From a virus, in the IMG/VR virus record IMGVR_UViG_3300026519_000053, positions 1 to 29,570 of that record: 29,570 nucleotides of DNA. One strand, 5' to 3'. Both the position numbers and the translations under genes were made by a program. Below are positions 4,783 through 26,842 of the stretch, piece after piece (position 1 is the first letter of the stretch; each line of letters starts with the position of its first letter). Below the pieces are notes generated by a model. That model saw nothing but the letters and a program-made list of their open reading frames with translations. It was not told where the DNA came from and made no database searches.

Positions 4783-5027
4783 CAGTAGATGAGATACAAG
4801 AATACATTACCAAGAACGGAGTTAAATCCCTATCTAAGAACGACTTAGTGTATGCATTTAAAGTGTTTAGCATTACCAAATCAAGTAAAGATGACACTGC
4901 TATTCAAAAGGAACATACAAAAGCAATATTAAAAGAACTCAAAGCAAGGCGTAAAGAGTACGATTTCTTTGTAGGAAATAGTATCGCAAATAAAGCAAAT
5001 ATGCAAAAGTATAACAAAAAGGATTAA
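4779..5027 (+). CDS. Small protein coupled to RNase H, function unknown
   Basis: An 82-residue, highly charged, helical protein (MTVDEIQEYITKNG at the start, LKELKARRKEYDFF in the second half). It starts in an ATGA overlap with rnh and ends in a TAATG overlap with the spike gene. In T4 the genes beside rnh are dsbA and 33, which act in late transcription. The position is comparable, but no sequence similarity that I can vouch for was seen, so that link is only a suggestion. Confidence 0.7.
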   Translation: MTVDEIQEYITKNGVKSLSKNDLVYAFKVFSITKSSKDDTAIQKEHTKAILKELKARRKEYDFFVGNSIANKANMQKYNKKD

Positions 5028-5686
5028 TGGTGAAAGACCATATAGAAGAAAAATACAAAACAAAACTAAATAGTATTTACTACGGTACAGTTATGGATAA
5101 CAAAGACCCTAAGAATAGAGGCAGATGTAAATGTATAATAATAGGTATATGCGACACGCCTATATGGTGCGAAAGTAAAACTCCTATAATTGGTGGTACA
5201 AATGATGTAAACGGTATATCAAGCGTTCCTAGGTTGGGTCAGCATGTTTATATACAGTTCATTAACGGAGATATAGATAATCCGCTCATTACAGGAATGG
5301 TTAGAGGTGCATCTGATAATAGCCCAGAGGTTCAATCTCCAAAAGATTATGTAATTAACCTACCTGCCGATGGACGCTTTATCATCAAAATAGGTGATAC
5401 TAGATTTGAGGTGTCTAGTAATGGTTTTAATAAGATAGGTAATGAAATACATAACGGTAATGTAAACTTAACAGGAGATACTACCCAAAACGGTAATGTA
5501 AACTTAACAGGAGATACTACCCAAAACGGTAATGTAAACTTAACAGGAAACGAAACAATAACAGGTGATAGCGATGTAAGTGGATTAATAACTGCTGGTA
5601 CAGATGTTAGTGTAGGTGCTATCACATTAACAACACATACACATATTGGAGCGGATAAAGGTCTCCCTACAGGAGTACCAATGTAG
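5027..5686 (+). CDS. Baseplate central spike, gpV/gp5 OB-fold type
   Basis: Membrane-piercing spike of the baseplate. Residues about 15-95 form the gpV/gp5 OB-fold domain (YYGTVMDNKDPKNRGRCKC, then VPRLGQHVYIQFINGDIDNP, a hallmark of phage baseplate spikes). Residues about 143-175 are a 12-residue tandem repeat NGNVNLTGDTTQ expected to form the triple-stranded beta-helix. The C-terminus has HTH (204-206), matching the HxH iron-binding apex known from P2 gpV and phi92 spikes. The length of 219 is close to P2 gpV. The lysozyme domain of T4 gp5 is absent. It starts in a TAATG overlap after 4779-5027 and leads the baseplate block. Confidence 0.88.
   Translation: MVKDHIEEKYKTKLNSIYYGTVMDNKDPKNRGRCKCIIIGICDTPIWCESKTPIIGGTNDVNGISSVPRLGQHVYIQFINGDIDNPLITGMVRGASDNSPEVQSPKDYVINLPADGRFIIKIGDTRFEVSSNGFNKIGNEIHNGNVNLTGDTTQNGNVNLTGDTTQNGNVNLTGNETITGDSDVSGLITAGTDVSVGAITLTTHTHIGADKGLPTGVPM
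5453..5550 (+). repeat. 36-bp tandem repeat inside the spike gene
   Basis: Two perfect 36-base units (5453-5488 and 5489-5524) and a partial third (5525-5550), each beginning AACGGTAATGTAAACTTAAC. In frame they encode 12 residues per unit. Identity at third codon positions points to recent expansion, so spike length may vary between strains. Confidence 0.93.
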
Positions 5687-6718: not shown

Positions 6719-8431
6719 ATGACTTTAATTGATAAAGACGAATTGATAGGACTGTTTGGTACAGATACTGTTGATTTAGACTCTATACGCGACCGTATAA
6801 AATCATATCTAATAGAAAAGAATGTATTGACCGATGTAAATTATGAGGGTAGCAATATATCTATATTAGTAGATATCATTGCATACTCAGTTTATAACGT
6901 CAATGCTAACACAGACCTGCAAACTAAAGAAATGTTCATTAAAACGGCATCTGTATACGCCAATGTGTGGAATTTAGCAGTAACCAACTTTGGATACATA
7001 CCACATACAATTAGAGCGTCAATGCTACCAGTTACTATAACCAATAATTCAACAAAAGAAATAACCATTAACAGGGGCGATTTATTCTTAGGTGGTAGTA
7101 TTAAATTTACTCCAAAGAATGAAGTGACCATTGGTGCTGGAGAGTCTTCTGTAGTCACATTACTAGAGGGCAGGTATGTAGATAAGAATATAGATAGGAG
7201 GTCAAGCCATAGCGTGACAGATGATATTAGTGAATTTATTATACCAATACATAATATAGATATTGATACAATTATGGTACAAGTCACTAAAGACGGTAGT
7301 ACGCCTATTATATATACTAAAGTTGATGTATTTACAGAACTTGATATAAATAAATATGTAGCTAGATATGACCCTACCACTAAGTACACATCTATATTCT
7401 TTTCGTATAACTCATTCGGAAAGACTCTAGTTAGAGGTGATTACATTGAAACATCGTTTATCATTCCAACACTTGGTAGTGAAGCATATAAGGTAACTGA
7501 AATTAAATCAACTAATACAGATATATCTGTAGCTAATTTAAATGGTGTTACCGCAAGTAAGGTATATGATTACGAAGATATAAATTCAATAAAAGAAAGA
7601 GCACCACTGTTTAAACAATCAAACGGTACGTGTACTATAGCAGATGATTACATAAATTCAATGAGTTCACTTAGCTTTGTTTATGCCTCAAATATAGTAG
7701 ATGGAAATAACTTATTAATGGATAGTGCCTCTAGTGAACAGGAAGCACTAACATACCCACCAATAACAAATCCAGGTACAATTGCATTAACGGCTATACA
7801 TGATGATTATACACCATTGACTCTAGCGGAGAGAGATATACTAATTCAACATATATCAAGTAAGAAACCAATAGGTACAAAACTTGAATATTTTAATAGT
7901 GATGTATGGAACATAAATCTAAAGATAACTACGGACGGAGAGGTGAGAGACTTCGCTAATAAAAAAGCTTTAGTTGAGGGTGTGTTCACACAGTATTATA
8001 ACGATTATCTATCAGGGTATGAGAAAACGCACTATCACTCTTTACTATCACGTAATATTAATAAGATATTTGAGGGTGATATTATATCACTTGATATTGT
8101 AAGTCATTACGATATACATAGCTATGGACGTACACCTTCAGATAAAGTCGTTGTTCCATTTGTACCATTTAAGCGTATATTAAAGAAAGGAGTTGATATT
8201 ATCCATATACCAACAGATATTAGCGAATATCAAGCTAGGTTAAATGATGGATGGATAGTCTTAACTGTGCCATATATAGATAATGTAAAAGCAATAGATG
8301 ACACAAATGGTAATGTATTCACCCCATTGTATGTATCTGATAATACAGTACCATTCCACATGGATAAGAATATAAACACTAGATTAACGGGTGTATCAAT
8401 ATACAAGAGAGGTACTATAGAATGGCTGTAA
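6719..8431 (+). CDS. gp6: Baseplate wedge protein gp6 (baseplate J family)
   Basis: Forms the inner ring of the baseplate. The N-terminal part is diagnostic: ILVDIIAYSVYNVNANTDLQ near residue 50 and EMFIKTASVYANVWNLAV followed by FGYIPHTIRAS near 73-105, the gp6 signature in T4-like phages. A baseplate-J-like middle domain and a C-terminal dimerisation domain fill the rest. The length of 570 residues is shorter than T4 (660). The ATG follows AAGGACG. The 3' end overlaps the next gene by 10 bases, indicating translational coupling. Confidence 0.92.
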   Translation: MTLIDKDELIGLFGTDTVDLDSIRDRIKSYLIEKNVLTDVNYEGSNISILVDIIAYSVYNVNANTDLQTKEMFIKTASVYANVWNLAVTNFGYIPHTIRASMLPVTITNNSTKEITINRGDLFLGGSIKFTPKNEVTIGAGESSVVTLLEGRYVDKNIDRRSSHSVTDDISEFIIPIHNIDIDTIMVQVTKDGSTPIIYTKVDVFTELDINKYVARYDPTTKYTSIFFSYNSFGKTLVRGDYIETSFIIPTLGSEAYKVTEIKSTNTDISVANLNGVTASKVYDYEDINSIKERAPLFKQSNGTCTIADDYINSMSSLSFVYASNIVDGNNLLMDSASSEQEALTYPPITNPGTIALTAIHDDYTPLTLAERDILIQHISSKKPIGTKLEYFNSDVWNINLKITTDGEVRDFANKKALVEGVFTQYYNDYLSGYEKTHYHSLLSRNINKIFEGDIISLDIVSHYDIHSYGRTPSDKVVVPFVPFKRILKKGVDIIHIPTDISEYQARLNDGWIVLTVPYIDNVKAIDDTNGNVFTPLYVSDNTVPFHMDKNINTRLTGVSIYKRGTIEWL

Positions 8432-9717
8432 TACTAACAGATGAAGAAATCTTAGCACATAATACGGTTGAATATAATAGTGTAAAATCTATTGATACCG
8501 TTAAGCCACCAATAGTGGTAACTAAGTTTGTAAATAATACGGGTATTATAGACGGTAATGTAGATAACAATAATGATGTAGATATTACAGATGAAATTAA
8601 TAAAGACTCTGTAGATGATTATAAAGTAGATAGAATACTAAATAAGTTAATACCTACTAAGTTACAATCTGATATTAGGTTTAAAGAGTTTGTAAGGTCA
8701 TTTTTGGTATTCACGAATAAGTCACTAAATTTAGGCGATAGTTCATTCATAGATTTAATTGATATTAATAGACTACATTCAGAGAATATAACTGAATTGT
8801 ATATAAACACGTTCTTACCTAGTATTAATATCGATACAAATAGTAGTGACTCTAACTATTTGACTATTAAAAGTTTGATAGGTATATCTACTGAATTATC
8901 GGCTAACATTGCCACCGAAAAGGCATATAAAATATTACTTGGATTATTAACATATCTAATGGGGTCTACTAATGAAGTAGATAACTTGATATATATTATC
9001 AATAACCCATCATCATCAAAATATGATGTTGATAATGCCACACGTAAATTAAGATACCACATGTCTGTTAGAAATGGTACAGACATTGAGATACTAGAGG
9101 GCGATGAACCATTCAAATACGATATTATAACAACCGCGTCTTTGGACTTTGTCAAGAAACACTTAGTCCCATATATTCACCCTGCTGGGTGGGTATATTC
9201 ATTACGTAAATTAACTCCATATCTAGTGGGAGAAGTTGACGGAGAAATATTATCTAATATATCTAACAAGACATTTATATTAACACAAAGAAACAGACAC
9301 GCCCCAATATTAGGGCATTTCGATGTAGATACAATACGTACTTTTAATTTAGTTAATGATATAAATGATATGACTAAGAATGCAGTATCCCCTTTACATG
9401 GTATAACTATAGTAGGTAATAAGGTTACGGAAACAAAGAATTATAGGGAGAGATTTGGTGTATCAAGTACAAATCCATTAGGTAAAACGTTATCTTATGT
9501 TACCATTCCAAGTGTAGATATGCCTACATCTCCTAGGGGATACATGTATGGGATTAGTGCGGGAGGTGAATATAATCCTAGTTTATCACCTTTGGATAAT
9601 GACGCGTACTACTCAAAATTGTTAAATATTGATACAACAACATTTAATACAAAAGTTGTATCTACGGGTGTCAAAGATGTGTCACAAAACACTAATTTCA
9701 TCTTCATTTCAACATAA
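8422..9717 (+). CDS. Probable baseplate wedge protein in the gp7 position
   Basis: A 431-residue protein directly after gp6, overlapping it by 10 bases. Residues about 245-270 carry FVKKHLVPYIHPAGWVYSLR. A 'xxxHPAGWxx' patch of this sort is common in proteins following gp6 in T4-like phages. The region before it (residues 85-215) is helical and the N-terminal 75 residues are Asn/Asp-rich and probably extended. T4 gp7 is far longer (1032 residues), so orthology is not certain. A reduced gp7 or a connector to the tail fibres are both possible. Confidence 0.6.
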   Translation: MAVILTDEEILAHNTVEYNSVKSIDTVKPPIVVTKFVNNTGIIDGNVDNNNDVDITDEINKDSVDDYKVDRILNKLIPTKLQSDIRFKEFVRSFLVFTNKSLNLGDSSFIDLIDINRLHSENITELYINTFLPSINIDTNSSDSNYLTIKSLIGISTELSANIATEKAYKILLGLLTYLMGSTNEVDNLIYIINNPSSSKYDVDNATRKLRYHMSVRNGTDIEILEGDEPFKYDIITTASLDFVKKHLVPYIHPAGWVYSLRKLTPYLVGEVDGEILSNISNKTFILTQRNRHAPILGHFDVDTIRTFNLVNDINDMTKNAVSPLHGITIVGNKVTETKNYRERFGVSSTNPLGKTLSYVTIPSVDMPTSPRGYMYGISAGGEYNPSLSPLDNDAYYSKLLNIDTTTFNTKVVSTGVKDVSQNTNFIFIST

Positions 9718-13268: not shown

Positions 13269-14183
13269 ATGGCAAATAATGGATTAGGAATACCAACTCC
13301 CCTTGGAGTAGCTGGTGTATACACACAAACTTACGATTTCTCACAAAGATTATCGCCCGAAAGTTCACTAAATGTCGGTACACTACTATTCACTTCCAAG
13401 GGAGATGTAGGAACACTTCATGATATAACTTCATCAACGGCATTAACAAACATTTTGGGTCTACCACCAAAGGACGCCACACAAGATAGATTAGTAGTTG
13501 ATAAAATATTTGATTACAAAGTAGGCGGTTTAGGTGCTAACGTTAAGATAGCACGTGTTATAGGTAAAAACTCTAAGGGAACCGTTGTTAGTATGGAAGA
13601 TACAAGCGAAGACTTTTCAATAGGAGATACTACAATCTTTAATATGAAACAAGCATCACAAGCAGATATATCTACATTCACGTTATCGGTAGTTGCAAAA
13701 GACGTAGTGCAAGCTCCACTAATTATAGATGCTGTTGATATGGCAAATAGAATAGAAGCTATAGCGCCTACTCCTATCACAGTAGATATGTTAAAAGCAG
13801 AATTTACAGAATATGCGTCACTTGACGGTACACAATTTGATGTATTTGCAGGACTAGATGTAAATAGTGTATATGTACTTAGTGATACAGCTAGCACTAC
13901 ACAGGCTGGATTAGAAGTTAAGAGTGCTTTCTTTGATGCTAATATGTTACCTATCCCAATTGTACCAGCAAGTGCTATTACTAACCTTGCTAATTTAGCA
14001 TTACCGTCAGAAGCCACAGTTACAATTGATACAACGTTTATAGCAACTGCACTAAAAATAGATATACAATATATTAATTGGTTATTGGATGTAAATTCTG
14101 TATATTTGGTACAACAGCCAGTAGGAACGGTAACAGACACTAGACTTGATACATACTTAGCTGATAATGTATTCGCAATCTAA
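13269..14183 (+). CDS. Tail sheath, N-terminal half encoded as a separate gene
   Basis: Residues 1-105 match the start of T4 gp18-type sheaths: PTPLGVAGVYTQTYDFSQR (the extended N-terminal arm), VGTLLFTSKGDVGTLHDI, a DKIFDYKVGG segment and VKIARVIGKNS. The remaining 200 residues form a beta-rich insertion domain of no clear family. The protein then stops with a genuine TAA at 14181-14183, where other sheaths continue. The C-terminal half is the next gene. Shine-Dalgarno AAGGATT. The sequence shows two clean genes with separate ribosome sites, not a frameshift inside one frame. Confidence 0.82.
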   Translation: MANNGLGIPTPLGVAGVYTQTYDFSQRLSPESSLNVGTLLFTSKGDVGTLHDITSSTALTNILGLPPKDATQDRLVVDKIFDYKVGGLGANVKIARVIGKNSKGTVVSMEDTSEDFSIGDTTIFNMKQASQADISTFTLSVVAKDVVQAPLIIDAVDMANRIEAIAPTPITVDMLKAEFTEYASLDGTQFDVFAGLDVNSVYVLSDTASTTQAGLEVKSAFFDANMLPIPIVPASAITNLANLALPSEATVTIDTTFIATALKIDIQYINWLLDVNSVYLVQQPVGTVTDTRLDTYLADNVFAI

Positions 14184-14203
14184 CCAAAAAAGGAATTTAA
14201 AAA

Positions 14204-15472
14204 ATGGCTAAATTATTAATAGGTACAAACAACCCAAGTTCAGACGTAATCGTTGAATTAAAACAACATGGTACGTCATTAACACAAATGGATATAAAAG
14301 TTACAGACGGAGAACTAGTTACAGAATATGTAGTTAGTACAGATAGCAATGAAAAAGATGATAATGGCTTCTCAATGTTCATTGAGAGTGTTATGGAAAA
14401 AGACAATAGTATATTCGTTAAGATGGAAGACGGACTAAATGTTGTTGATTTCTTTAATAAGGCTGATAGAGCTGAACCAACAGATAAGACTAAATCGTAT
14501 GTATCAATTACTAATAAGGTAATTACAATAACGTTAAAATCTACTGTTGTATCCCCTACACTAGCAGATTACCAAAATGAATTGAAGTTATTTGAGAATA
14601 CGGACACGGTAGGATTACATTACTTTATGATACCGTCACCTGTCAATAGTACAGATGATGATACTAAAGCATTATTTGCGAGTGTTAACACTCTATCTAA
14701 CAATAGGAAAGATTTCTCATTTAGGAGTTCCGTACCTACATCTAAGATACTAGGAATGACAAAGAGTAATTCATTAATTGCTATTAAAGAATTGTATGGC
14801 TTAATTGGTAACACTACATTTGGTTCTGTAGATGGGAATTCATATAAAGTTTATGATAAGTACAATAACCGTACTACATGGATTACGGCACAGGGTGACG
14901 CAATAGGACTTAGAATAGCTCAAAACCTTAATCGCAATGTATGGTGGGCATCTGCTGGTGCTAACTATGGTTTATTACAAGGGGTGCTTGATATAGCCCA
15001 TGAATGGGATTTCAACGAGCAAAAGACATTACTAGAGTATAGAATTAATCCTATAGTTAATAAGAATAAAGTAGGATTTGTTAGAAATGACCAAATTAAC
15101 TTTACATCTAAGAAAAGTGATTTACAAGATGAGAACGTAAGAGAGTTACTTAACTACATCTACAGAACTGGTAAAGAGTTTCTATACTATAAGTTACATG
15201 AGTTTAATGATGAGTTCACTAGAACAGAAATTGATGCTAAATTTAATCGTTTCTTAGGTGGCATCCAAGATGGGCGTGGTATTAGAAAAGGTAGCGATGG
15301 AAAAGACGGATATTTCGTACAATGTGATGAGCAAAATAACACAGATGAGGTAATATCTGCTAAGATGCTAGTTATTGATATTGCGTTCTTACCTGCTAAG
15401 GCAATTAGAGAAATTCATCTTAGAATGAGTATCTATAACAATACAGTTGACTTAAGATTAGCAGAGGCTTGA
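14204..15472 (+). CDS. gp18: Tail sheath, C-terminal half encoded as a separate gene
   Basis: A 422-residue protein holding the conserved C-terminal sheath core. The N-terminal part resembles an internal gp18 segment (TEYVVSTDSNEKDDNGFSM, FIESVMEKD). Core motifs: KVYDKYNNRTTWITAQGDA near 230, VWWASAGANYGLLQG near 247, YRINPIVNKNKVGF near 281, LLNYIYRTGKEFLYYKLHEF then NDEFTR near 313-345, and FVQCDEQNNTDEVI near 371. These align with gp18's handshake domain. Its own AAAAAAGGAATTT site lies 20 bases after the first half. The two halves together total 726 residues against 659 in T4, so the complete sheath is most simply a heterodimeric unit. Confidence 0.88.
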   Translation: MAKLLIGTNNPSSDVIVELKQHGTSLTQMDIKVTDGELVTEYVVSTDSNEKDDNGFSMFIESVMEKDNSIFVKMEDGLNVVDFFNKADRAEPTDKTKSYVSITNKVITITLKSTVVSPTLADYQNELKLFENTDTVGLHYFMIPSPVNSTDDDTKALFASVNTLSNNRKDFSFRSSVPTSKILGMTKSNSLIAIKELYGLIGNTTFGSVDGNSYKVYDKYNNRTTWITAQGDAIGLRIAQNLNRNVWWASAGANYGLLQGVLDIAHEWDFNEQKTLLEYRINPIVNKNKVGFVRNDQINFTSKKSDLQDENVRELLNYIYRTGKEFLYYKLHEFNDEFTRTEIDAKFNRFLGGIQDGRGIRKGSDGKDGYFVQCDEQNNTDEVISAKMLVIDIAFLPAKAIREIHLRMSIYNNTVDLRLAEA

Positions 15473-15521: not shown

Positions 15522-16166
15522 TTGGAAGAAATACTAAAAGGACTTGATACTAAGATATTCACACCTGAATTAATATCTAAAATTGAACTAGAGTTTAAAA
15601 AGGCAGTTGACGCTAAGGTAAAAAAGACTAACGTATCGCTTGTAGAAAGTGTTATATCTACAATAAAAGATGATACTATCGCTAAAATAACAGCCGATAT
15701 TAAAACTAAAGTAAATGAAGCTAAGGAGGAAGTTACTAAAGAAACAAAAAATGCCCAAATTGCATTAGTAGAGTCTAAAGTAAAAGAAATTGCAGATACT
15801 TACTTGGAAGATAACAAGATGGTTACGGTTGATGTGGCTACAGTACTTAAAGCGGACTCTATCTTAGAAAGCGTTGCTATGTTTGCTACTAACATGGGCG
15901 CGGATATGGTAGCTATTACAGAGGGTACAAAAGAACTAACTGAATTAACGGATAAAGTTAATACACTTGAGGCTAAGATTAAATTCGATGAACTATCTGC
16001 TGATATGACTGTTACCCAAAAGGATACATTCACTAAACTAACCGAAAGTGCAAAGGGCACTGATTTAGATGTATTAGCAGATGTGGTTAAATCTATGTCA
16101 AATCCACAAGTAAACGAACACAAAAAAGAAACAGTTAAACAAAGCGGACTAATATACGATATGTAG
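15522..16166 (+). CDS. gp22: Prohead core scaffold protein (gp22-like)
   Basis: The internal scaffold around which the capsid assembles, degraded by the prohead protease in T4. The assignment rests on position directly before the capsid gene and on composition: almost entirely charged alpha-helix (long Lys/Glu/Asp stretches such as KAVDAKVKKTNVSLVESV and LTDKVNTLEAKIKFDELS), no Cys or Trp, and a basic C-terminus ending SGLIYDM. The length is 214 residues against 269 in T4. It begins with TTG 5 bases after AAGGATT. No ATG occurs in frame until far into the protein, so the rare start is well supported. Confidence 0.8.
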   Translation: MEEILKGLDTKIFTPELISKIELEFKKAVDAKVKKTNVSLVESVISTIKDDTIAKITADIKTKVNEAKEEVTKETKNAQIALVESKVKEIADTYLEDNKMVTVDVATVLKADSILESVAMFATNMGADMVAITEGTKELTELTDKVNTLEAKIKFDELSADMTVTQKDTFTKLTESAKGTDLDVLADVVKSMSNPQVNEHKKETVKQSGLIYDM

Positions 16167-16250: not shown

Positions 16251-17357
16251 ATGAATAAATATGAAAAAATGCTAGAAAGTGTAGACACTACATTGACCCC
16301 TGAAAATGCAAAAATGCTAGTAGAAAGCCCTACCGCTTTACCACTAAAATCGGAACAAACATACCTTACAATGGCAGGAACTGTTGATAAATTTCTTAAT
16401 GAGAATACATCAGCTGAAAACGTAGCAGGATTTAACCAATTAATACAACCTATGCTTAGACGTATGACACCACTATTAATTGCTAATGATATATGTTCAG
16501 TACAGCCAATTAATGGGAAAACTAACCAAATCATGATACTTTCTGGTACTAATGTAGATGGTAATGAGGTAGGATTCGGTGACCCTGCGGCTACGTCTGC
16601 TACAGTCGCACAAACTCCTGAGTCTGAGAGATATGCCAATTCCAAAGGTGTATCTATGAGTATCGGTACACTTTCGGTTACTGCTAAAGAGTCTATGTTA
16701 CGCTCAACGTTTACTGCCGAAGTTGCCCAAGATATGAAATTGGTGTTTGGACTTGATGCTAAAAAAGTACTTGCAGACTTCATGACTATTGAGTTAGCAT
16801 TACAACTTGATAAAGAGGTAATATCAGCTTATGCAAATAATGCACATGATGCTGGTGTGGTTACACTTGTTCCAAAAGAACACGCTCTTAATGGTAGACC
16901 TGCCGAGTCAGACATCATTCGTAAGATAGAAATTGAGGCAAACGCTATTGCACTAAGAGCTAGAGCTGGACGTGGTAATATTGCTATTGTTTCTACTACT
17001 GTTTTGTCTGCTATGCAAAGTACAAACTCATTCAATACTTATAACGATGGTGCCGATTTAGTATCTAGTAGAGTTCAAGCCTATGTAGGTACATTGAAAT
17101 CAGGTATTAAAGTGTACTGTGATGCCTTTGCAAATGATAATTCCGTTATCGTATTACACAAAGGTGAAGAGTTAAGAACGGGTGTAATTTATTCTCCATT
17201 CATAACATGGTTTTCTACGGCTGTATCAAGTACAACTTTCGAAGAGGTAATCGGTCTTAAATCAAGACATGCCATTACAGTTCATGAAGCGGATAAATAC
17301 GCGTCTAAGTTTGTAGTTGACTTTACCAATACTCCTGAATATGGTGTAGTTGCTTAA
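16251..17357 (+). CDS. gp23: Major capsid protein gp23
   Basis: HK97-fold capsid protein. T4-type signatures: LIQPMLRRMTPLLIANDIC then VQPINGKTNQIMIL near residues 64-105, AKESMLRSTFTAEVAQDMK near 143-163, FGLDAKKVLADFMTIELAL with LDKEVISAYANN near 165-200, and RGNIAIVSTTVLSAM near 241. The length is 368 residues against 521 in T4, so the insertion domain and much of the N-terminal propeptide are missing. A possible protease site of the T4 type (L/I-x-E) is LVE at residues 23-25. Shine-Dalgarno AAAAGGAATT. The gene has its own late-type promoter and a strong hairpin just after the stop. Confidence 0.93.
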   Translation: MNKYEKMLESVDTTLTPENAKMLVESPTALPLKSEQTYLTMAGTVDKFLNENTSAENVAGFNQLIQPMLRRMTPLLIANDICSVQPINGKTNQIMILSGTNVDGNEVGFGDPAATSATVAQTPESERYANSKGVSMSIGTLSVTAKESMLRSTFTAEVAQDMKLVFGLDAKKVLADFMTIELALQLDKEVISAYANNAHDAGVVTLVPKEHALNGRPAESDIIRKIEIEANAIALRARAGRGNIAIVSTTVLSAMQSTNSFNTYNDGADLVSSRVQAYVGTLKSGIKVYCDAFANDNSVIVLHKGEELRTGVIYSPFITWFSTAVSSTTFEEVIGLKSRHAITVHEADKYASKFVVDFTNTPEYGVVA

Positions 17358-25418: not shown

Positions 25419-25970
25419 TCATAGCCCCAAATCGGATTTTCCATATCCTCGTTTGAATACGAACTTAGCACTATCCAAAGAAGCCACATGTTTCCATTCA
25501 GGGTAATCAACCTTAACCATAGCATCTATCCTTGATGGAATGTAGCTATGTAATGCTGTTTTATGATACCCTGTTCTTTTTAAGAAATCGTAGGCTAAGT
25601 CATAGGTAAATACAACTCTTTGTTTCTTATGTATACGTGCCTTATTACGCTTTAATACATACTTTAGGAACTTAATTCTTATTTGCAATGGCAAGTAATG
25701 CAAGTTAACCCCAAATAGGTTATTATATGAGTTACGCTTTTCTAATACCATTATAACTGGGTGTTCATCATAGAACTTTAATTTTTCTTTATACTTAGGG
25801 TCGGAGTATCTAAATACAAGTATGTTACCGGCCGTCATCATTCTATTACGTTTTAATTCTAAGTAAGCGTGTGCCTTTTTCTTACCTAATCTACCTATAC
25901 GTTTGATAACATCAATAAACCATAATTCGGATTTTAAAATGTCTACGCTTTTGTTTTTCTTTTCAGTCAT
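25419..25970 (-). CDS. Conserved T4-type virion-associated protein, role uncertain
   Basis: 183 residues, strongly basic, between tail tube and portal. The middle segment AGNILVFRYSDPKYKEKL, then YDEHPVIMVL and FGVNLHYLPLQIRIKFL, is a pattern I recall from uncharacterised structural-cluster genes of T4-like marine phages ('G-x-NLHYLP'). The protein begins in a TAATG overlap with the tail tube gene. A head-tail joining, DNA-end or baseplate role is possible, and I cannot choose between them from sequence alone. Confidence 0.65.
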   Translation of the reverse strand: MTEKKNKSVDILKSELWFIDVIKRIGRLGKKKAHAYLELKRNRMMTAGNILVFRYSDPKYKEKLKFYDEHPVIMVLEKRNSYNNLFGVNLHYLPLQIRIKFLKYVLKRNKARIHKKQRVVFTYDLAYDFLKRTGYHKTALHSYIPSRIDAMVKVDYPEWKHVASLDSAKFVFKRGYGKSDLGL

Positions 25971-26842
25971 TAAAATCCTATATTTCTTCTGAACGTAGAT
26001 ACGCCATTATTAACAAATCCCTCTATCTCATATTTGTAACCGCTAAGAATACTTAACCCTTTACGCATAAAGTAAGATTTGAATAGCCCTATTAAGTCAT
26101 CTGCACTTTTTCCGTACAGGTCATCATATATTATTTCGGATGATGCTTTACTGAATGTTGTATTTAGTGGTTTAATTGAGTCAATGTTCATCGTTGTGTC
26201 AAATTGTTGTAACTCATTAGTTGATGAATTTGAATATATTAAATCACCAACGTTTAATGGATAGCACCCTCTTAATAGATATGATTTTACATATTTCTTT
26301 CTGTCAGGTGACTGTACCATGATTACAATATCTGCTTTATAATCATCAGGGTAATAAGCAATTGCTCCATGTTTAGAGTTAAATGTTTTATTCTGCCATT
26401 CCAAGAATAACTTATGTAACACCCCTCCATCATAAAATGTGAATGTTCCGTTATCTGTGTTCTTACTAGTGACATAAACACGTTTTGTATCTGCTAATAA
26501 TTGTGTGTTGACGGCCATTTGTTGTGATGGAACTGGTGCAGAGATACAAAATGTTTTCATTAATTTCATTACCTCATTATCTTTTGTTATCATCATACTT
26601 GGTAATACGAACATAGCTTCAAATCTTGACTTTAATTGTAGCCTCCATGACTCTGCCTGCAAATCCTTAATTTCAACAGAAGACGTATCTGTATTAAATG
26701 AGAATACACCATCGGTAAATGACATACTTAGAGAATTTAGATATTCACTTGAAAAATCATTTAACTTATCATTAATGAATGAGTCTATGGCACCCCCAAC
26801 TATACCGCTTAAATCGCTACTTACATCACTAAATATAGACAC
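25970..26842 (-). CDS. gp19: Tail tube protein (gp19-like, enlarged)
   Basis: The C-terminal half shows the tail tube pattern: ADIVIMVQSPDRKKYVKSY then LLRGCYPLNVGDLIYSNSS and LQQFDTTMNID, as in 'GCFPxxIG...QTFDVTF' of T4-like tubes. A SRFEAMF...MKTFCISAPVPSQQM segment near residues 71-107 fits the first tube strands. At 290 residues it is much longer than T4 gp19 (163) and near gp54 (320), so a tube-initiator protein is an alternative. Location before the portal favours gp19. The start is GTG, 6 bases after AGAGGTG. An upstream late-type promoter supports it. Confidence 0.75.
   Translation of the reverse strand: MSIFSDVSSDLSGIVGGAIDSFINDKLNDFSSEYLNSLSMSFTDGVFSFNTDTSSVEIKDLQAESWRLQLKSRFEAMFVLPSMMITKDNEVMKLMKTFCISAPVPSQQMAVNTQLLADTKRVYVTSKNTDNGTFTFYDGGVLHKLFLEWQNKTFNSKHGAIAYYPDDYKADIVIMVQSPDRKKYVKSYLLRGCYPLNVGDLIYSNSSTNELQQFDTTMNIDSIKPLNTTFSKASSEIIYDDLYGKSADDLIGLFKSYFMRKGLSILSGYKYEIEGFVNNGVSTFRRNIGF

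Follow-up and report, generated by a model that had tools for sequence, protein, structure and literature searches.

A T4-type phage tail sheath divided between two adjacent genes

Two sheath genes and the junction between them

In a T4-like phage, two adjacent genes on the same strand, which we call P1 and P2, encode complementary parts of a contractile tail sheath. They lie in a virus fragment of 29,570 bases (~29.6 kb; hereafter the window, meaning the whole stretch of DNA that was analysed), and their junction is known from this one metagenomic contig. The window carries T4-like capsid, scaffold-like, portal, protease, baseplate, tube, clamp-loader and primase genes. The features of the locus are as follows.

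13269..14183, + strand: P1, N-terminal sheath half (304 aa, 32.3 kDa; stop codon TAA at 14181-14183)
13311..13376, + strand: P1 residues 15-36, N-terminal arm (GVYTQTYDFSQRLSPESSLNV), from a profile alignment with 114 sheath N-termini
13377..13562, + strand: P1 residues 37-98, core-domain strands and helices (pLDDT 74-93 over most)
13563..14180, + strand: P1 residues 99-304, insertion region (low-confidence model; length within the normal range)
14181..14203, + strand: junction, with the P1 TAA (14181-14183), a Shine-Dalgarno sequence AAGGAA (14190-14195) and a TAA in the second frame (14198-14200)
14204..15472, + strand: P2, C-terminal sheath half (422 aa, 47.7 kDa; ATG at 14204)
14240..15406, + strand: P2 residues 13-401, corresponding to residues 232-634 of the Klebsiella phage sheath (9f4a/9ev2)
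15407..15469, + strand: P2 residues 402-422, C-terminal strands (404-411 and 414-421 in the model)
15522..16166, + strand: neighbouring head scaffold-like gene (weak match)
16251..17357, + strand: neighbouring major capsid gene, gp23-like (profile matches)

The two ORFs lie where the original prediction had placed them, 20 bases apart, and they are in different frames. The P2 frame has its own TAA 3 bases upstream of the ATG. The Shine-Dalgarno sequence of P2 (AAAAAAGGAATTTAAAAAATG) is of the type usual in the window and is nearly identical to that of the major capsid gene (AAAAGGAATTACAAAAATG). P1 is coding throughout, with a GC content by codon position of 0.50/0.40/0.19 that resembles the capsid gene. 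We also considered that the junction might hold an intron or RNA element and rejected this, because neither the window nor four Firehammervirus loci matched any Rfam family; no endonuclease gene lies in or beside the 20-base gap, and the pair is flanked by helicase and scaffold-like genes.

Such a locus might also be a pseudogene or an artefact, that is, a one-chain sheath gene that a mutation, a misassembly or a sequencing error has interrupted. Broken sheath genes do exist among the relatives surveyed below: L013 has an in-frame stop, L060 and L271 are frameshifted, and the Fletchervirus loci L209 and L210 are interrupted. For P1 and P2, however, we consider this explanation very improbable. 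When every substitution and every 1-2-base insertion or deletion was tried by brute force (55,100 single edits), no ORF of at least 700 aa emerged and the longest was 316 aa. The original prediction had set the split against a stop that resequencing might remove, and on this point the split holds: no single edit joins the P1 and P2 frames, so one sequencing error cannot produce it. In addition, a strong ribosome site accompanies the start codon of P2, and the same architecture occurs in a second phage genus.

Several other genes of the window deserve mention. The tail tube gene (25970-26842, - strand) lies on the other strand at a distance of 10 kb; in T4-like KVP40 the tube gene follows the sheath gene. 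The gp5-like hub protein (5027-5686) is only 219 aa long and starts with an OB domain; no lysozyme domain was recognised in it. A 447-aa ORF (309-1652, - strand) has no PHROG match and no Pfam match at 0.01, and a 431-aa ORF (8422-9717) has no PHROG match and no Pfam match at E 0.1.

Complementary homology of P1 and P2

To compare P1 and P2 with intact sheaths we used profiles built from 114 full-length single-chain sheaths, with an N-terminus profile of 106 positions. P1 residues 15-108 give a modest match to this profile (18.5 bits, positions 7-95 of 106); the runner-up among 97 window ORFs reached 2.6 bits and none of 2000 shuffles exceeded 11.4 bits. The N-terminal sheath motifs that had been pointed out in P1 thus exceed chance. 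The AlphaFold model of P1 is confident for about residues 31-105 only, and structure alignments past residue 98 were disregarded because the model there is of low confidence. Residues 37-98 superpose on residues 30-85 of 9ezm_A with an rmsd of 2.0 Å over 56 residues and 29% identity; with so short a piece the Z score (4.5) is weak, and the top ranks go to sheath chains. Residues 99-304 have no meaningful Pfam, PHROG or PDB sequence match. Searches that included IMG/VR returned no sequence-level relative of P1. From published descriptions of sheath architecture (PMC5807055, PMC10457771), residues 15-36 are probably the equivalent of the handshake strand.

P2 is an unmistakable sheath. It matches phrog_23 (tail sheath) with an E value of 9.8e-36 over profile positions 167-467 of 496, scores above the cut-off for PF17482, the Pfam sheath C-terminal domain, and gives 188.6 bits over positions 206-571 of 587 in our own sheath profile. 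P2 matches 2542 phage records, all of them at 60% identity or less; Vibrio phage Va1 comes closest, at 30.5%. The AlphaFold model (pLDDT 80, pTM 0.69) aligns with the sheath of Klebsiella phage KP1 (9f4a_SA) with a Z score of 28.7 over 352 residues, and structure alignment with T4 gp18 (3j2m) places P2 residue 1 at gp18 residue 221. The last residues, 402-422, would be the equivalent of the C-terminal handshake arm, judging from the strands in the model.

P1 could instead be a separate tail protein, with P2 a complete sheath that has no N-terminal part; that P1 has no match in Pfam or in the sheath PHROGs would fit with this. However, P1 residues 15-108 match sheath N-termini well above every decoy, and P2 would then be a T4-type sheath with neither N-terminal arm nor first core strands. 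We regard this reading as hardly probable at all.

The homologies of P1 and P2 to the profiles are complementary, with no overlap and no duplicated part. At the level of structure, P2 residues 13-401 fall on chain residues 232-634 and P1 residues 37-98 from chain residue 28 or 30 onward, so that P1 and P2 are successive, separate parts of one fold. Of the features of a T4-type sheath, the N-terminal part is thus present in P1 and the C-terminal part in P2, and the single polypeptide is absent. Between the two core segments lie 227 residues (P1 109-304 plus P2 1-31), and the chain break falls within this variable insertion. The corresponding stretch in the 114 single-chain sheaths has a median of 174 residues and a 5-95% range of 84-439; the insertion is therefore of ordinary size, and the unrelated acquired domain that had been suggested for the C-terminal 200 residues of P1 is not needed. 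Together the two proteins comprise 726 aa, the 71st percentile among single-chain sheaths; by length, nothing is missing. Two intact ORFs, non-overlapping homology and the ribosome site of P2 bear out the proposal that the sheath is encoded as two separately translated, complementary genes.

We think it likely, with a probability of about 0.85, that a T4-type sheath gene was split and that P1 and P2 fold as one heterodimeric protomer. The sheath gene of the window phage would have undergone fission, leaving P1 to supply the N-terminal arm, the first core strands and helices and the exposed insertion, and P2 to supply the remaining core and the C-terminal arm. Each would be translated from its own ribosome site, probably on one late message, and the two would co-fold, presumably in a 1:1 ratio, into a protomer equivalent in function to a single gp18 chain. 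In such a sheath, the handshake between neighbouring protomers would be formed by the P1 arm and the P2 arm. A chain cut inside the insertion would leave two pieces able to fold together. The further idea that a two-chain sheath alters how contraction is triggered is speculation.

A split of the same kind in Firehammervirus

To place the split among related phages, we surveyed 297 loci of relatives. The sheath is in one ORF with both ends at 222 of the 297, a count on which we rejected the idea that such a split is a common annotation slip. Clean two-gene splits occurred in Firehammervirus only; the other interruptions resemble stops or frameshifts. One-chain sheaths are found in Fletchervirus NCTC12673 and in Vibrio phage Va1, and the best-scoring MAG relative (L087) is single-chain over the stretch covered. 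In the Fletchervirus-like records CC12667_12682_P3 and F336 (L209 1465-3413; L210 1480-3410), an otherwise intact sheath gene is in pieces, and these breaks are probably sequencing errors. Within IMG/VR, queries with P1, capsid, clamp loader and the gp6-like protein returned no close relative of the window phage, and the P2 query returned one distant single-chain sheath.

Searching viral proteins by structure led us to Campylobacter phages with short sheath entries. Related phages had been named as a place to look for the same split, and it is indeed present, in kind, in every Firehammervirus Campylobacter phage examined. In CP220, CPt10, IBB_35, CP20, WX1 and CJLB-14, a gene for the N half (A) is followed by a gene for the C half (B); the pair is CPT_0052/CPT_0053 in CP220 and genes 1-7/1-8 in IBB_35, the latter assignment being our reading of the gene order, in which the capsid gene is 1-6. 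The A half covers profile positions 7-119 (in CJLB-14) and is 39% identical to Va1 residues 1-139, and the B half covers positions 106-576 and is about 50% identical to Va1 residues 180-646. F379, CC_R7, CJLB-13, CJLB-12 and CP21 have A, with B interrupted again in the record. At six of eight junctions (CP220, IBB_35, CPt10, CP20, WX1 and F379), B continues the frame of A, and what separates them is one stop codon or two together with a ribosome site.

Two further observations concern these genes individually. In F379, CC_R7 and CJLB-13, an insert of ~0.6-1.6 kb cuts B at one shared profile position, 437/438 (L217 6724-8319; L214 7091-7691; L220 6724-8313), and no Rfam intron was recognised in the insert of F379 or CC_R7. 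The A gene contains an Ig-like array of variable length and totals 255-579 aa (L211 4950-8306; L205 2492-5797; L214 4001-5740; L217 4001-5383; L206 2492-3259), a pattern that would fit a display role for the C-terminus left free at the break.

Published virion analyses bear directly on the Firehammervirus pair. Peptide sequencing of CP220 virion bands identified CPT_0053 (64.2 kDa), CPT_0052 (58.4 kDa) and CPT_0034 (59.2 kDa), which was read as 'at least two types of Gp18' (Timms 2010, PMC2853527). CPT_0053 is the B half, with 578 aa and a calculated mass of 64.2 kDa equal to that of its virion band, and CPT_0052 is the A half; thus, an infectious phage in culture makes the halves separately, and both reach the virion as distinct proteins of the mass that their genes predict. 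Mass spectrometry of IBB_35 virions likewise found the products of genes 1-7, 1-8 and 2-15 (PMC3322345). Because B is without what A has, we infer that A and B form one protomer. This suggests that in the CP220 virion proteome two halves were earlier taken for two types of sheath, and that two-chain phage sheaths are real and viable and had been misread. We found no split phage sheath described as such in the literature, searched mostly outside subscription journals; the split is present in Firehammervirus genomes and virion gels and was previously unrecognised.

CP220 has a second sheath, CPT_0034 (L216 1436-2986, - strand), a strongly diverged full-length relative of 516 aa that covers profile positions 14-565 and lies beside a DNA ligase gene. 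P1 and P2 might by analogy be an auxiliary, decaying or specialised second copy, with a full-length sheath gene elsewhere building the tail: CP220 has the split pair and the full-length gene with all three products in its virions, the P2 branch in the tree described below is long, and, given that the window is a fragment and that CP220 has CPT_0034, a full-length copy could lie outside the window contig. Yet in CP220 the split pair is the conserved one (B shares 50% identity with Va1), whereas the full-length gene has diverged (about 25%). Furthermore, P1 and P2 adjoin the scaffold-like and capsid genes, a position shared by the CP220 split pair, and the divergence of P2 (best identity 30%) is no greater than that of the capsid (31%) and portal (27%), so it is not an unusually fast copy. 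We therefore think a second copy unlikely and favour P1 and P2 as the two chains of the protomer.

Comparison with other two-chain systems

The original prediction took known sheaths to be one chain, which is too strong, given the T6SS sheath TssB/TssC and the sheaths of PaBG and Firehammervirus, all of which have two. The closest parallel in phages is Firehammervirus. As in the window, its genes are adjacent, on the same strand and near the capsid gene; the first encodes the N-terminal arm and first core segment and the second the rest of the sheath, with the break in the inter-core insertion. The breaks differ in position. In Firehammervirus the break is at about profile positions 106-119 and part of the insertion is in the second gene, whereas in the window it lies between profile positions 95/127 and 206 and the insertion is in P1 except for ~12-30 residues. 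A homing endonuclease gene lies downstream in CP220, CPt10, IBB_35 and WX1, in contrast to the window gap. The C halves are ~34-36% identical over their best-matching part.

A maximum-likelihood tree of the C-terminal core groups Firehammervirus B with the single-chain sheath of Va1 (support 100, 88) and L087 and places the window P2 elsewhere, on a long branch. This placement suggests two fissions, tempered by the long branch and by an AU test that retains a joint clade of the two (p 0.133). We therefore propose only tentatively, at somewhat less than even odds, that two-chain, TssB/TssC-like phage sheaths arose through independent fissions in the inter-core insertion, on two or more occasions. 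If this is true, split halves suffice for the phage sheath core to assemble, and these phages provide a model for the origin of the two-protein T6SS sheath.

Other paired or divided phage genes resemble P1/P2 less. The jumbo phage PaBG has two sheath genes with both products in the virion, which are 38% identical paralogues (PMC7412058); these proteins are full-size and arose by duplication, whereas P1 and P2 are different parts of one sheath. T4-like genes split into chains that reassemble include Aeh1 nrdA, the T4 topoisomerase gene 60 and gene 43A/43B of phage 25 (PMC2988022). These encode enzymes and have an endonuclease gene or an untranslated insert between the parts, whereas P1 and P2 are separated by 20 bases only. 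Sheaths of the T4 gp18 type are homologous to both halves, yet are one polypeptide.

The natural counterpart outside phages is the T6SS sheath, where a chain divided in this way is the rule: TssB contributes the N-terminal handshake strand and two middle-sheet strands, and TssC the rest with the C-terminal strand (PMC5807055). The division between P1 and P2 is the same, with P1 likened to TssB by description, and the P2 model aligns with residues 118-476 of VipB (TssC) with a Z score of about 19. The VipA/VipB families gave no Pfam match to P1 or P2 at E 0.1, and the sandwich topology of VipB differs according to the XM1 authors (PMC10457771). The gene neighbourhood of P1 and P2 is that of a phage, unlike that of the T6SS. 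In the T6SS, ClpV recycles the sheath.

The sheath serves contractile phages as their motor, driving the tail tube into the host as it contracts, and a natural split marks where its chain tolerates cutting; two separately made chains also offer a handle for testing assembly and contraction. The split makes a phage sheath comparable with the two-chain sheath of the T6SS: the window phage is a second, distant phage with a split sheath, in an arrangement that is known in kind from the T6SS.
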